NCBI GenBank assembly: GCA_031290175.1
Contig: JAITOC010000059.1
Location: 1 to 37,160 of the forward strand
DNA from: Coriobacteriales bacterium
GTDB taxonomy: Bacteria > Actinomycetota > Coriobacteriia > Coriobacteriales > UBA8131
Reading direction: 5' to 3'
Length of the DNA: 37,160 nucleotides
Notes under the pieces: model-generated
Told to the model about the DNA's origin: nothing
Databases searched by the model: none
The model's input: the letters and a program-made list of their open reading frames with translations, nothing else
Made by a program: the position numbers and the translations under genes
Shown here: in pieces, positions 20,427-29,223 of the stretch
How the letters are laid out: each line of letters starts with the position of its first letter
How positions within the stretch are numbered: the first letter of the stretch is position 1

Positions 20427-21856
<1,430 letters not shown>

Positions 21857-21857
<1 letters not shown>

Positions 21858-23086
21858 TGTCTGAGGTCGGATCAGAGAAGGCGCTCCGCGCCCGCCTTGA
21901 GGAGTTGCCGCGTACCATCTGGTGGGAGGCCGCCTCTTCAGGAGACAGGCCTGCCGTCTGCCTTATCGACCAGACGCGCCTGCCGTTTCGAGAAGATGTG
22001 CGCAGGTGCCATACGCTTGAGGATGTTGAAGGAGCCATACAGTCGCTTGCGCTGCGTGGCGCGCCGGTTCTTGGCGTCGCGGCGGCTCTGGCACTCGCTT
22101 TATGGAGCGAGAATGAGTCGGGCGAGACCGATGTTGACGCCTGGTTAGTCGGCCTCGATATTGCCGCTGCACGTATCGCGCAGGTTCGGCCGACTGCGGT
22201 AAACCTCGCTTGGGGAGCAGAGCGGATGCGCGCCTTTGCCCATACGCTTGACGGTGTTCTGGATGAGCGCAAGGCCGCTATTCTTGACTTTGCCCTGCGC
22301 CTGGTCGATGAGGATGAGGCGGTCAACCGTGCCCTGGGCGCCAAGGGGGCGGAGCTTCTCAAGCCCCAGGCGCGTGTTTTGACGCACTGCAACACAGGAT
22401 CACTTGCGACCGTGTTTTTTGGGACGGCACTCGGAGTTGTCTATTCTGCCTACGACCAGGGGCGCGTCAGCCAGGTCTGGGTCTGCGAGACCCGACCGCT
22501 TAACCAGGGAGGGCGCCTGACGACCTGGGAGCTCATGCGGGCGGGCATCCCCTGCACCCTGATTGCCGACGATGCAGCAGCAAGCCTTATGGCTGCGGGC
22601 GAGGTCGATGCCGTGCTCGTTGGTGCGGATCGTATCTGCGCAAACGGTGACGCCGCCAATAAGATCGGAACTTTGGCACTGGCAATCGCCGCGAACCATT
22701 ATCATGTTCCCTTCTATGTGTGTGCACCGCTCTCAACCTTCGACGCAACGCTCAAGGACGGTTCTCAGATACCCATCGAGCGACGCGCTTCCTCTGAACT
22801 GCAGGGCTTTGGTGCCTCGGGAGTTGTTGTGCCGGATTCCCGGCTTATCGCAACGGTTCTGTCTGCTGTTACGGGTAAGGGCAAGCGCAGCTTCAAGCTC
22901 AAAGAAGGGCATCGAGCCAGCATCGAACGCGTCACAGGGGGCTATGCTTTCGACACCTGGCTCAGGACAACACCCCAGAAAACAAGGGTCTACAATCCTG
23001 CCTTTGACGTGACTCCGGCAAGCTTGATAAGTTCCTTTGTTACCGAGACCGGCGTCTACGCCCCTCATGAGCTTGAGTCAGTGTGA
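21857..23086 (+). CDS. mtnA: S-methyl-5-thioribose-1-phosphate isomerase
   Basis: DQTRLPFREDVRRCHTLEDVEGAIQSLALRGAPVLGVAAALALAL...LTHCNTGSLATVFFGTALGVVYSAYDQGRVSQVWVCETRPLNQGGRLTTWEL...VLVGADRICANGDAANKIGTLALAI; TGATG overlap with ahcY. Confidence 0.93.
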
Positions 23087-23962: not shown

Positions 23963-24219
23963 GGTTCCCTCCAGGTCTGTGGTTGCGGAGACTTTCTGTA
24001 AAGAGAGCTCTCTTAGTCCAAGGTAGATGCGGCCTAAAGGATCCACGTAAACCAGCGGGTCTCTCTGCTGGCGAGCACGGCGCGTCTTAGGGGTAAGTCG
24101 TACCGCTCGGTGTAAGGGGCATCCGCCCCCCGGGCGAGAGGGTCAGTAGTGAGATCGTATCAAGCAAAAGCCCCCGTATGCGAGTGTGGGGTCAAAGACC
24201 AGGTCAGCTGGAGGGAACC
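23963..24219 (+). ncRNA. Structured ncRNA, probable raiA RNA
   Basis: Perfect 12-bp closing stem GGTTCCCTCCAG (23963-23974)/CTGGAGGGAACC (24208-24219); internal hairpins (GAGAGCTCTC, CCAGC..GCTGG, GGGGCatccGCCCC); extended -10 TGCTAAAAT just before the 5' end; lies 3' of comF, upstream of raiA on the same strand; no coding potential. Confidence 0.65.
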
Positions 24220-24281: not shown

Positions 24282-25256
24282 ATGAAGCGGATGCGTTCTA
24301 TTCTATCGGTGGTTTTGGTTTTTATGATGGTTGCCCTCTCATTCGGGCTTTCCGGCTGCTTTTTCAACCAGGAGCAGGGGACAGGTCTGACCTTGTCCGA
24401 TCCGGCGGTCACCACGCCGACGATAGCAACTCCCGGAGTGCTTCGGGTCGGGGTTGATTCGTCCCATGGTCCTTTTGCCGGTATCGTGGACGGAAAAATC
24501 GTCGGGATCGACAGGGATATAGCGGCCGCAGTTGCTGAGCGTCTCGGCTTGCGTCTTGAGTTGATCGATATCGCCAACCAGGATCCCACTCAGATGTTGG
24601 CGGAGGGTACGGTTGATATCGTAATGGGGGTCAAAAAGAGCAACGAGGTCTCTCCGCAAAACGGGCTGATAGGTCCCTATATCGTCGATGGGCCCGCAAT
24701 CTTCGTGATAAACCAGTCCGGCGTACCCCAGCCGCTCGATCCGGCGACACTCAACGGTCAGACCATCGTTACCAAGGCGGATACGCGCGCAGCCTGGCAG
24801 GCGCAGCAGGCCTACGGCTCAGAGAATGTCATCGAGCTTGAATTAGCCCCCAATGAGATAGCCCCGATTTTCGATCAGCTCAAGAGCGGTGAAGTAACCT
24901 ATGCGGCCGTGGACGCGGTCAGTGGATCGCATATCGCTGCGGTTAACTATGATGACATCGTCTGTGCGGCCTTTCTTGCAGACAAGGATGGCGTGTACCC
25001 TGAAGGCGTCTACATGGCAGTGCGACCAGATAATACCGAACTCGCCAACAAGGTTACCCAGGCTCTGCAGGGGATGCGTGATGGTGGGGAGCTGACGGTC
25101 ATAGTCAGCAAGTGGCTCGGCCCTGTCTCCACATCCGTACTGACGGGCAAACAGGCAATAGAGTCACATACGGTCACGCCAGAGCTCGGTGGGGCTACGA
25201 GTGGCGGGACAGATACAGGTGCCGACCCCAACGCTGCCCCGAACTCCCTACAATAG
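24282..25256 (+). CDS. Amino acid ABC transporter substrate-binding lipoprotein (SBP family 3), canonical domain order
   Basis: Lipobox LSGC; VLRVGVDSSHGPFAGIVDGKIVGIDRDIAAAVAERLGLRLELI...GTVDIVMGVKKS...ALQGMRDGGELTVIVSKWLG in native order. Confidence 0.88.
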   Translation: MKRMRSILSVVLVFMMVALSFGLSGCFFNQEQGTGLTLSDPAVTTPTIATPGVLRVGVDSSHGPFAGIVDGKIVGIDRDIAAAVAERLGLRLELIDIANQDPTQMLAEGTVDIVMGVKKSNEVSPQNGLIGPYIVDGPAIFVINQSGVPQPLDPATLNGQTIVTKADTRAAWQAQQAYGSENVIELELAPNEIAPIFDQLKSGEVTYAAVDAVSGSHIAAVNYDDIVCAAFLADKDGVYPEGVYMAVRPDNTELANKVTQALQGMRDGGELTVIVSKWLGPVSTSVLTGKQAIESHTVTPELGGATSGGTDTGADPNAAPNSLQ

Positions 25257-25358: not shown

Positions 25359-25398
25359 ACAAAGGGACATGGAAAAGTAAGCTAAGAGGAGGTTTACA

Positions 25399-26280
25399 AT
25401 GTTGAGAGTCAAGAAAGGCCTTGCGCTTCTGATGGTACTAGTGCTGGCGATGAGTCTGTCGTTGTTCGGCTGTGGGACCAGCGCCCCCAGCGGTTCCGAT
25501 GAACCGAGCACCACAGACGACCAGCCCGTGGCCGCAAAGACGGAACTCGTCGAGTTCCCTGCGACCAGCGAGGCGCTCGCTGCTCTTGAGGCAGGCAATG
25601 TGGAGGCGGTCGTATTCGACGAGCCCGTGGCGGTCGAGCAAGTTGCAAATACCTATACGGATGCTGAGATCATCGAGGTTATCCCGACGGGCGAGCAGTA
25701 CGGTTTTGCGGTCTCCAAGGATAACCCAGAGCTCACCGCAGCGGTTAACTGGGCACTGGGTGACATTGAGAAGGATGGTTCGTTCGCTCCTATCTTTGAG
25801 AAGTATTTCCCTGGAGTCTCGGTTCCCAAGCTGACGACTTCTGCCACACCTGCAAGCAAGCCGGATCTGACCGCTATCAAGACCGTCACCGCAGGCACGC
25901 TTACGGTTGGTTCCGATTGTGACTACCCGCCCTTCATCTACATGGAGGGGGAAACTCCTGCCGGCTTCGAGTATGAGATTTTGCAACTGGTCGGGGAGAA
26001 GCTTGGTTTGAAGATTGAGTATCTGGCACCACAGGCATTCGACTCCATCCTAGCTTCTGTTTCGGCAGGCACAAAGATGGATATCGGTGTCTCATCCTTT
26101 ACCATCAATGACGTACGCCTTGAAACCGTTGATTTCTGTGTGCCGTACTTCGATTCCAATCAGGCGGTAGTAGCGCTCAAGTCCAAGGGCTACACGAGTG
26201 TTGAGGATCTGAGGGGTAAGAAGGTTGCTGCCCAGTCCGGCACGACCGGCGCTGATTGGGTACGTGAGAACCTGATGTAA
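25399..26280 (+). CDS. Circularly permuted SBP family 3 amino acid-binding lipoprotein
   Basis: Lipobox LFGC; aa 47-139 match the C-terminal part of a GlnH-type SBP (KTELVEFPATSEALAALEAGNVEAVVFDEP...YGFAVSKDNPELTAAVNWALGDIEKDGSFAPIFEKYFPG); aa 161-292 match its N-terminal part (GTLTVGSDCDYPPFIYMEGETPAGFEYEILQLVGEKLGL...DIGVSSFTINDVRLETVDFCVPYFDSNQAVV...LRGKKVAAQSGTTGADWVRENL), then TAATAA. Confidence 0.88.
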   Translation: MLRVKKGLALLMVLVLAMSLSLFGCGTSAPSGSDEPSTTDDQPVAAKTELVEFPATSEALAALEAGNVEAVVFDEPVAVEQVANTYTDAEIIEVIPTGEQYGFAVSKDNPELTAAVNWALGDIEKDGSFAPIFEKYFPGVSVPKLTTSATPASKPDLTAIKTVTAGTLTVGSDCDYPPFIYMEGETPAGFEYEILQLVGEKLGLKIEYLAPQAFDSILASVSAGTKMDIGVSSFTINDVRLETVDFCVPYFDSNQAVVALKSKGYTSVEDLRGKKVAAQSGTTGADWVRENLM

Positions 26281-26291
26281 TAACCTGCGAC

Positions 26292-26337: not shown

Positions 26338-27771
26338 ATGCGGCTCTTTGAATCCTTCCCAGAAAGACGGTTGATGACGAAAAGCGCTACTGCAAGGATT
26401 GCGCAACTGCTACTCACCTTTGTGGTGGCGTTTGTTGTTGCGTCTTTTTTCGCCCTTGTCGCCTTGGCACCCCTTGAGGCTGACGCGCTAACGGTGAAAC
26501 GAACAACTGCCAGTTCGAATGAATCTGCTGGCAACAATATCATCGGTGGTGAACCTACTCGTGTGACTTGGGAGGCAGTGGTTGCCGATAACGAAGAGAT
26601 TGCCTCACTGAATCTCAAGTTTCCTGAAGGCTGCTCCCTTGCCGACGATGCCAGCGCCAGGGTAACGGTGATCGAGGGTACCAAGCGCGTCGACACCCTG
26701 ACCGAACTGCCCATAACCGCAGATGAGGCAGTCATCAACTTCTCTGACCCAGTGCCGAGTGGTATGATTTTGCGCGTTGAGGTATATCATATATGCCTGC
26801 CGGCCTTTGGAGGTACCTATAGCCTGACCGGATCCTATGTCGATGGCAAGGGTGTAGAGAGAGAGCTGGAGGCATCTCCGACCATAACGGTTATCGGCAT
26901 GCCTTTTAATCAGGCGCTCATCAAATGGCTCGGGGATCAATCCTGGGTTCAGTGGTGGAACTCATTCACCTTCTGCAAGATATTCCTGAATCCGCAGGTC
27001 GCCGCCGCCGCCATCCCTAATACCTTCATAGGCTGGTTGCGCTCGCTCGGCCTTGTGCTCGTCGGCTTTCCCCTGGCCATACCCATCGGTCTCGGTATTG
27101 CGTTTTTGAGGATGTCGACGCTGCCGCCCCTCCGCTTTGTTGCTTCGATCTACGTGAACGTCATCCGTGGTACGCCGCTATTCCTGCAGATATACATTGC
27201 CTTCTTCGGTCTACCGCTTCTTGGTCTGAAGGTGGACGAATATCTACTCGGTATTCTGGTACTTGCCATGAACTCGAGTGCCTATCTAGGTGAGATCTTC
27301 CGGGCGGGCATCCAGTCCATCCACAAGGGGCAGTTCGAGGCAGCGGCTTCGCTCGGGATGAATAAGCGCCAGACGATGTTCTCGGTCATCATTCCGCAGA
27401 CCATACGTCGCGTCATCCCAACGGCAACCTCCGAGTTCATCCTGCTCTACAAAGACACCTCGCTGCTCGCTGCCGTCGGTGTCATGGAGCAGATGATGTT
27501 CGCAAAGACTATGGTAGCCACAACGGGGAACATGACCCCCTATATGGTCGCCGCAGGCTACTACCTGATTGTGACCCTGCCCTTGACGCGGATCATCTCG
27601 ACCTTTGAGAAGAGGCTGGCCGCCGCAGAGGGGCAGGACGCGCCAGACGACAAGGCAAAGGGCAAGAAGAAGGCTCGGCGTGTAGGCTTATTCAAGACAA
27701 CAGTACCAACGAACACCATTGACACGGGTTTAACCGCAAAGAGCGATCCCGACCAGCATTCGAGCCAGTGA
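26338..27771 (+). CDS. Polar amino acid ABC transporter permease (HisM-type) with N-terminal extracytoplasmic domain
   Basis: N-terminal TM/signal anchor, about 150-aa beta-rich ectodomain, then HisM permease with YVNVIRGTPLFLQIYIAFFGLP and EAAASLGMNKRQTMFSVIIPQTIRRVIPTATSEFILLYKDTSLLAAVGVMEQM; start may be 26374. Confidence 0.9.
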   Translation: MRLFESFPERRLMTKSATARIAQLLLTFVVAFVVASFFALVALAPLEADALTVKRTTASSNESAGNNIIGGEPTRVTWEAVVADNEEIASLNLKFPEGCSLADDASARVTVIEGTKRVDTLTELPITADEAVINFSDPVPSGMILRVEVYHICLPAFGGTYSLTGSYVDGKGVERELEASPTITVIGMPFNQALIKWLGDQSWVQWWNSFTFCKIFLNPQVAAAAIPNTFIGWLRSLGLVLVGFPLAIPIGLGIAFLRMSTLPPLRFVASIYVNVIRGTPLFLQIYIAFFGLPLLGLKVDEYLLGILVLAMNSSAYLGEIFRAGIQSIHKGQFEAAASLGMNKRQTMFSVIIPQTIRRVIPTATSEFILLYKDTSLLAAVGVMEQMMFAKTMVATTGNMTPYMVAAGYYLIVTLPLTRIISTFEKRLAAAEGQDAPDDKAKGKKKARRVGLFKTTVPTNTIDTGLTAKSDPDQHSSQ

Positions 27772-27783
27772 GCGTGGTAGATC

Positions 27784-28533
27784 ATGTGTGCAGATAAATC
27801 CACAAGAACCATCGTCAGCATCAGGAACCTCTACAAGGCATTTGGCAACAACGAGGTGCTGAAGGGTGTCGATCTGAACGTCGCACGTGGTGAGGTTGTT
27901 GTCATTTTAGGACCTTCGGGCTCGGGGAAATCGACCCTGCTGCGCTGCGTGAACCTGCTTGAGAAGCCCACTTCGGGCGAGATCTGGCTTGAAGATACCG
28001 AGATTACCGCGCCTAAGACCGACGTGAATAAAGTGCGTGAACGCATCGGGATGGTGTTCCAGTCTTTCAACCTCTTTCCGCATCTGTCGGCCAAGCGCAA
28101 TGTCATGCTCGCCCAGCGCAAGGTGCTCAAGCGCTCCAAAGAGGATGCCGAGCGCATCGCGCTGGAACAATTGGAGAAGGTCGGGCTCGGAGACCGCGTC
28201 AACTATCTGCCCGCGCAACTCTCCGGTGGTCAGCAACAGCGCGTGGCCATTGCACGTGCACTGGCGACCGACCCGCACGTTATGCTCTTTGACGAGGCGA
28301 CCAGCGCGCTTGACCCCGAGCTTGTGCGCGGTGTCCTCGATGTCATGCGCTCGCTTGCCGAGGCCGGCATGACCATGATGGTCGTTACCCACGAGATGGG
28401 CTTTGCCCGCGAGGTAGCAGACCGTGTCATCTTTATGGACGAGGGTGTTATCGTCGAGCAAGGCTCGCCCCAGGAGGTCTTTGACCACCCCACATCCCCA
28501 CGCACACAGGATTTCTTAGGACACATCTCCTGA
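27784..28533 (+). CDS. Polar amino acid ABC transporter ATP-binding protein (GlnQ/HisP-like)
   Basis: [76 protein letters not shown]. Confidence 0.95.
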
Positions 28534-28635: not shown

Positions 28636-29223
28636 ATGGATATCAGGGTAACCGGTCGCAAGATGACGATCAGCGAGCCTCTGCGCGCCTACGTTGAAGA
28701 GAAGATCGGGAACTCCGTCAAGGTATTCAATATCACGCCCATGGCCGCTGAAGTCGTGTTGCGCAAAGAGCGCAATCCCGCCAACCCACGTCCGGCTATC
28801 GCCGAGGTCACCCTTCTCACCAAGGGGCATGTCATCCGCACTGAAGAGCGCGAAGAGGACATGTACGCGGCAATCGATGTTGCCGCGGCAAAGGTGGAGC
28901 GTCAGCTCCGCAAGTATAAGACCCGCGTCGTTGATAGGCGCAACCACGGACAACGCATCAACGATGTCCTCGTGCCTGAGATAGACGTAGCCCTTGCAGC
29001 TGAGCATATCGCAGCTGTTGAGGATGATGAGAAGGTTGTTCGTATTAAGGAGATCGAGCTGGAAGCACTGACTGAAGAAGAAGCGCTTATCAAGCTTGAC
29101 CTGCTCGGCCATGACTTTTACGTCTATACCGACACCATAAATGGACTCACAAACGTACTCTATCGGAGGAAAGACGGAAGCTATGGCATCCTCAAACCGC
29201 GCGTCGAGGCCATCGACGGTTAA
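28636..29223 (+). CDS. raiA: Ribosome hibernation-promoting factor, long form (RaiA/HPF)
   Basis: MDIRVTGRKMTISEPLRAYVEEKIGN...NPANPRPAIAEVTLLTKGHVIRTEEREEDMYAAIDVAAAKVERQLRKYKTRVVDR; C-terminal RIKEIELEALTEEEALIKLDLLGHDFYVYTDTINGLTNVLYRRKDGSYGILKP. Confidence 0.95.
   Translation: MDIRVTGRKMTISEPLRAYVEEKIGNSVKVFNITPMAAEVVLRKERNPANPRPAIAEVTLLTKGHVIRTEEREEDMYAAIDVAAAKVERQLRKYKTRVVDRRNHGQRINDVLVPEIDVALAAEHIAAVEDDEKVVRIKEIELEALTEEEALIKLDLLGHDFYVYTDTINGLTNVLYRRKDGSYGILKPRVEAIDG

Follow-up and report, generated by a model that had tools for sequence, protein, structure and literature searches.

Organization of the locus

The window, the whole stretch of 37,160 nucleotides that was analysed, carries an ABC transporter operon in which the second gene encodes a circularly permuted family-3 solute-binding protein (SBP). 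For its description, three segments are distinguished: A extends from the start of lobe I to the hinge strand, M comprises some 30 residues, as far as SGTTGADWVRENL, and C is the remainder. Canonical SBPs follow the order A-M-C, and the window protein follows C-linker-A-M. The features of the operon are as follows:

24282..25256, + strand: SBP1, upstream paralogue in canonical order, without the carboxylate-binding Arg75 (profiles, residue check)
25387..25392, + strand: Shine-Dalgarno sequence AGGAGG (sequence)
25399..26280, + strand: open reading frame of the permuted family-3 SBP lipoprotein, 293 aa, C-linker-A-M (profile searches, structure matches, segment HMMs, AlphaFold2)
25399..25473, + strand: lipoprotein signal peptide with lipobox LFGC, Cys25 (sequence)
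25474..25536, + strand: new N-terminal stalk, from Cys25 to the domain (sequence)
25537..25815, + strand: C segment, aa 47-139, C-terminal part of the canonical protein, corresponding to GlnH 132-221 (segment HMMs, GlnH comparison)
25816..25878, + strand: linker, aa 140-160, made up of the former C-tail and the former N-terminal stalk (relatives' sequences, dN/dS of 0.86, lowest pLDDT)
25879..26187, + strand: A segment, aa 161-263, N-terminal part of the canonical protein, as far as the hinge strand (segment HMMs, GlnH comparison)
26188..26277, + strand: M segment, aa 264-293, the first part of lobe II, as far as the cut at WVRENLM (segment HMMs, GlnH comparison)
26278..26283, + strand: double stop TAA TAA, after the last codon ATG (sequence)
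26338..27771, + strand: amino-acid ABC permease (BPD_transp_1, HEQRo_perm_3TM), carrying a large extension at its N terminus (profiles)
27784..28533, + strand: ABC transporter ATPase (profiles)

The sequence-only reading had assigned the frame at 25399-26280 a Shine-Dalgarno sequence, the lipobox LFGC and the stops TAATAA, all of which are present; its last residue, given as about 292, is corrected to 293, the protein ending in RENLM. The lipobox Cys is invariant in 7/7 aligned permutants, and the new N-terminal stalk of the window protein is variable and hydrophilic.

Several other elements flank the operon. A raiA RNA (RF03072, 155.6 bits) lies at 23966-24216 (+), between a comF-like gene and the operon, which raiA RNA likewise precedes in loci L029, L030, L034 and L083; an HPF/RaiA gene follows the ATPase gene at 28636-29223. 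Upstream of the locus, at 20448-23086, are genes for adenosylhomocysteinase and methylthioribose-1-phosphate isomerase; by eye, similar upstream frames occur in L029 and an enolase-like frame instead in L030.

Swapped order of a complete domain

The profile PF00497 matches the window protein with 99.7 bits (cut-off 26.4) in two stretches of swapped order, profile positions 1-95 corresponding to residues 168-264 and positions 76-131 to DNA 25609-25812. NCBIfam profiles likewise produce two swapped stretches in the window protein and one stretch in the canonical orthologue of G008, while the best-scoring chains among solved structures match query residues 165-292 first and residues 46-141 afterwards. 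The Pfam, NCBIfam and PDB matches therefore tile canonical SBPs in swapped order, as had been proposed for the halves of SBP_bac_3, and native-order matches were not found among them.

Finer detail was obtained by comparison with E. coli GlnH, with its sequence and ligand-contact residues as the reference. GlnH 5-128 corresponds to query residues 158-293 and GlnH 132-221 to residues 45-142, which places the cut between the equivalents of residues 128 and 132, where it had been predicted. GlnH residues 5-221 are represented with a gap of about 3 residues, and in a 37-sequence alignment restored to canonical order all blocks are present, except that about 4 residues, PGAT in relatives, are lost or replaced at the cut; the domain is thus complete, with no block missing, as first supposed. 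The ligand residues Asp10, Thr70, Arg75 and Asp157 of GlnH are kept as Asp173, Thr235, Arg240 and Asp74, and Lys115 and His156 are changed to Gln279 and Phe73.

On the evidence of the PF00497 score, the two-lobe domain and the amino-acid clamp residues, the window protein is a family-3 SBP that differs in N-to-C order. It is a natural circular permutant in that it is a cyclic rotation with no segment absent or doubled, kept in independent genomes under selection.

Predicted structure

AlphaFold2 modelled the window domain with a pLDDT of 90.7 and a pTM of 0.82, the minimum lying in the linker, and an M-C-A relative with a pLDDT of 93.7 and a pTM of 0.89. The window model agrees with the complete fold that had been expected, confidence being high across both lobes and lower in the linker only, and no model without a lobe was found. 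Because long strands occupy both expected lobe crossings (residues 43-55 and 205-214), both crossings of the hinge appear to be retained in the window protein; the assignment of these strands to lobes follows GlnH.

End-to-end alignment of permutants is impossible with sequential Foldseek; its matches to single family-3 SBPs cover one half, with 84-87 residues superposed at 0.8-1.5 Angstrom. For the M-C-A model, the top PDB match is the GlnPQ SBD1-SBD2 tandem (6h30), in which the segments occur in M-C-A order across the domain junction. An alignment of the window protein with canonical half-proteins (A2) misplaced the C halves and was left out of modelling.

Authenticity and selection

A protein from G004, a genome of another genus, shares 70% identity with the window protein and has the same order and the same cut. 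Since G004 was assembled independently, the order in the window is real and no artefact of assembly. That the permutation is one of appearance only, produced by collapse or mis-joining of a genuine tandem array of SBP2, the second binding-protein gene, is extremely unlikely: such an error would suit a draft genome in 128 contigs and a taxonomic order in which tandem SBP genes exist (G395), but it is opposed by G004, by M-C-A permutants in 24 genomes of another order, including the single-contig G520 with completeness 100, and by the lipobox, Shine-Dalgarno sequence and stops, which are all in register in the permutant genes. Conservation of the order in homologues, which the sequence-only reading had proposed as a check, was found in G004 with the same cut and in 26 more genomes with a shifted cut.

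Substitution rates between the window genome (G000) and G004 were calculated separately for the domain, with dN of 0.14, saturated dS and dN/dS of about 0.04, and for the 25 codons of the linker, with dN/dS of 0.66/0.77 = 0.86. M-C-A pairs with unsaturated dS gave dN/dS of 0.05-0.08. These rates indicate that the domain is under purifying selection and that the linker is relaxed. Another explanation, that the leftovers of two SBP genes were joined by deletion into a decaying, nonfunctional remnant, draws on the roughly 4 residues gone at the cut and on the second SBP gene upstream; it is nonetheless highly improbable in view of the strong purifying selection across the whole domain, the cross-genus conservation, the confident predicted fold and the fact that no canonical copy of the window SBP2 orthologue was found elsewhere in the draft window genome (78.5% complete). 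The same selection, conservation and fold uphold the original view of a permutant rather than a product of decay.

Distribution of permutants

In the taxonomic family of the window, 31 orthologues were ordered, 28 canonical and 3 permuted, and the third permutant, from G006, is cut about 30 residues earlier than the window protein, which gives M-C-A. Segment HMMs assigned 106 proteins to A-M-C (78), M-C-A (26) and C-A-M (2); the underlying searches were centred on permutants, and the counts should not be read as frequencies. All permutants (28/28) are cyclic rotations, and non-cyclic orders, which are equally possible, number 0. The M-C-A cut, near the lobe hinge, is commoner among the permutants examined than the C-A-M cut of the window.

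A phylum search with the three permutants brought up further proteins of the G006 type. A full-length M-C-A permutant is present in 24/69 genomes of another order of the same class, G520 among them, and in 1/24 genomes (G624) of a further Actinomycetota class, while two more Actinomycetota classes (66 and 40 genomes) yielded no permutant at strict cut-offs. Among the matches listed in a plasmid search with an M-C-A protein, only distant ones (<60% identity) were seen. In one genome, G781, a permuted SBP of the group coexists with a canonical one (L115, L153).

Number of origins

The best tree inferred from the rearranged sequences requires a minimum of 4 order changes, and 4 or more are required in 999/1000 bootstraps. 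Three independent origins of permutation are firm in these phylogenies because a single clade of all 28 permutants is rejected (p = 1.5e-7), as are clades of all 26 M-C-A proteins (p 1.7e-9), of the 24 M-C-A proteins with G624 (p 8e-12) and of the 24 with G006 (p 2e-60). Monophyly of the 24 themselves is weakly supported (61/80). A fourth origin, separating G000 and G004 from G006, probably also occurred, because the cut sites differ and because a clade of the window-family permutants is rejected by the permease tree (p 0.005) and the concatenated tree (p 0.017).

A single ancient permutation inherited by all, with later drift of the cut and reversion in some lineages, is very unlikely. By itself, the SBP tree is compatible with a clade uniting the three window-family permutants (p 0.25, 0.36), and the linker design is similar in all permutants; yet the four rejected groupings, together with the permease and concatenated trees, contradict such a history, and the segments of each permutant are closest to local canonical neighbours. 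Repeated permutation is thus well supported. It is a more tentative proposal, and one that we regard as rather doubtful, that the binding protein of this operon was permuted at least 4 times at two cuts in Actinomycetota because a lipid anchor on lobe II instead of lobe I confers an advantage in tethering, closure or docking, and not merely because duplication is easy.

Proposed mechanism

In each lineage, the linker consists of its own canonical C-tail and its own lipoprotein stalk, as exemplified by ...KYFPEQDLPDYASE, at the stop, plus DFTVVEEGTLTVGS in G428 compared with KYFPDQEVPDYSDIEGDVDADFETVKEGALTV in G624. Because the linker joins the old C-tail to the old post-lipobox stalk, permutation by duplication is the likely route. 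Tandem SBP copies would first have been fused in frame, with the second signal peptide absent, followed by loss of the N-part of the first copy and the C-part of the second. The linker would thereby make lobe I continuous, and the lipid anchor would be shifted from lobe I to lobe II, with Venus-flytrap closure and delivery to the permease presumably unchanged.

Possible precursors are present in the taxonomic order of the window, to which both G395 and G194 belong. SBP2 genes are adjacent in G395, and G194 (L031) has a 1016-aa frame with two closely similar SBP domains and a permease, resembling GlnPQ. This SBP-SBP-permease fusion looks like an internal duplication. No half-trimmed intermediate with overlapping ends was found among the relatives examined. 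A chimera of SBP1 and SBP2 was considered and ruled out: the permutants are not chimeras, because A, M and C are each nearest to local canonical SBP2 orthologues.

Comparison with known systems

The window protein shares its domain, ligand residues, lipoprotein export and operon with permease and ATPase with family-3 SBPs of type II, such as E. coli GlnH, T. maritima ArgBP and AncQR. These are canonical (A-M-C), whereas the window protein is C-A-M, with an internal linker and its N-terminal lipid anchor presumably on the other lobe. In many type II SBPs, most ligand residues are situated in the discontinuous lobe (PMC10601554), which would become continuous via the linker in the window protein.

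A natural permutant of an ABC-importer binding lipoprotein has been described in Treponema pallidum, namely Tp0684/TpMglB-2, with a crystal structure and calorimetric ligand binding (PMC4990184). The study put forward the label Type Ic and named tethering as a possible explanation (PMC4990184). Tp0684 has a type I sugar-binding fold (cluster B) and an unrelated cut, and its permuted part is about 13% identical to MglB; the window group, in contrast, comprises predicted type II amino-acid binders with two cuts and several origins, whose segments are 60-80% identical to unpermuted neighbours. The window protein does not fall into Type Ic, being family-3 and type II in both sequence and fold.

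Permutation by duplication, comprising tandem duplication, fusion and trimming, is an established model for saposin/swaposin and DNA methyltransferases (PMC3320104). In contrast to those cases, canonical, tandem, fused-tandem and two-cut permutant genes here coexist among the relatives of one gene. The GlnPQ tandem (6h30) and the G194 fusion display the order C-linker-A across a domain junction and may plausibly resemble an intermediate state, although they hold two complete domains and the window protein one permuted domain. The solved structures and open-access papers searched contained no permuted type II SBP, of family-3 or otherwise; the papers yielded Tp0684 only, and an unseen report may exist beyond them. 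Family-3 itself is known, and natural permutation of an SBP has one known precedent, Tp0684, of another fold class.

Implications of the permuted genes

As a rule, a natural circular permutation is inferred from a comparison of distant homologues. The coexistence of canonical, tandem, fused-tandem and permuted genes with readable linkers makes both the duplication model and the frequency with which permutation recurs directly testable, and the genes form a natural record of how proteins become circularly permuted; recurrence, two cut sites and visible precursors are more telling than one odd gene. As native, predicted amino-acid binders, the permutants can be used to ask whether anchor position affects SBP function, and they provide ready scaffolds for sensors. 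Order-sensitive annotation may split or misjudge permuted SBPs.

Function in the operon

In the window's family, permutants occupy the operon slot of the canonical orthologues examined, after SBP1 and before the permease. The window gene very probably encodes a lipoprotein, permuted in place, that works as the substrate binder of an ABC importer for polar amino acids, with folding, binding and transport all being predicted. Should SBP1, the canonical-order paralogue in the operon, supply binding, the permuted protein could fold and serve elsewhere, as a signalling or surface receptor instead of delivering substrate to the adjacent permease; this is improbable, however, as SBP1 lacks the carboxylate-binding Arg75 in 4/4 genomes checked, along with most other ligand residues, and the permutant sits exactly at the canonical position.

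SBP1 is nonetheless retained in the operon, possibly as a non-binding SBP-like partner. The N-terminal extension of the permease (aa ~45-200), to which no family was assigned, is common to the relatives and to the fused SBP-SBP-permease of G194.
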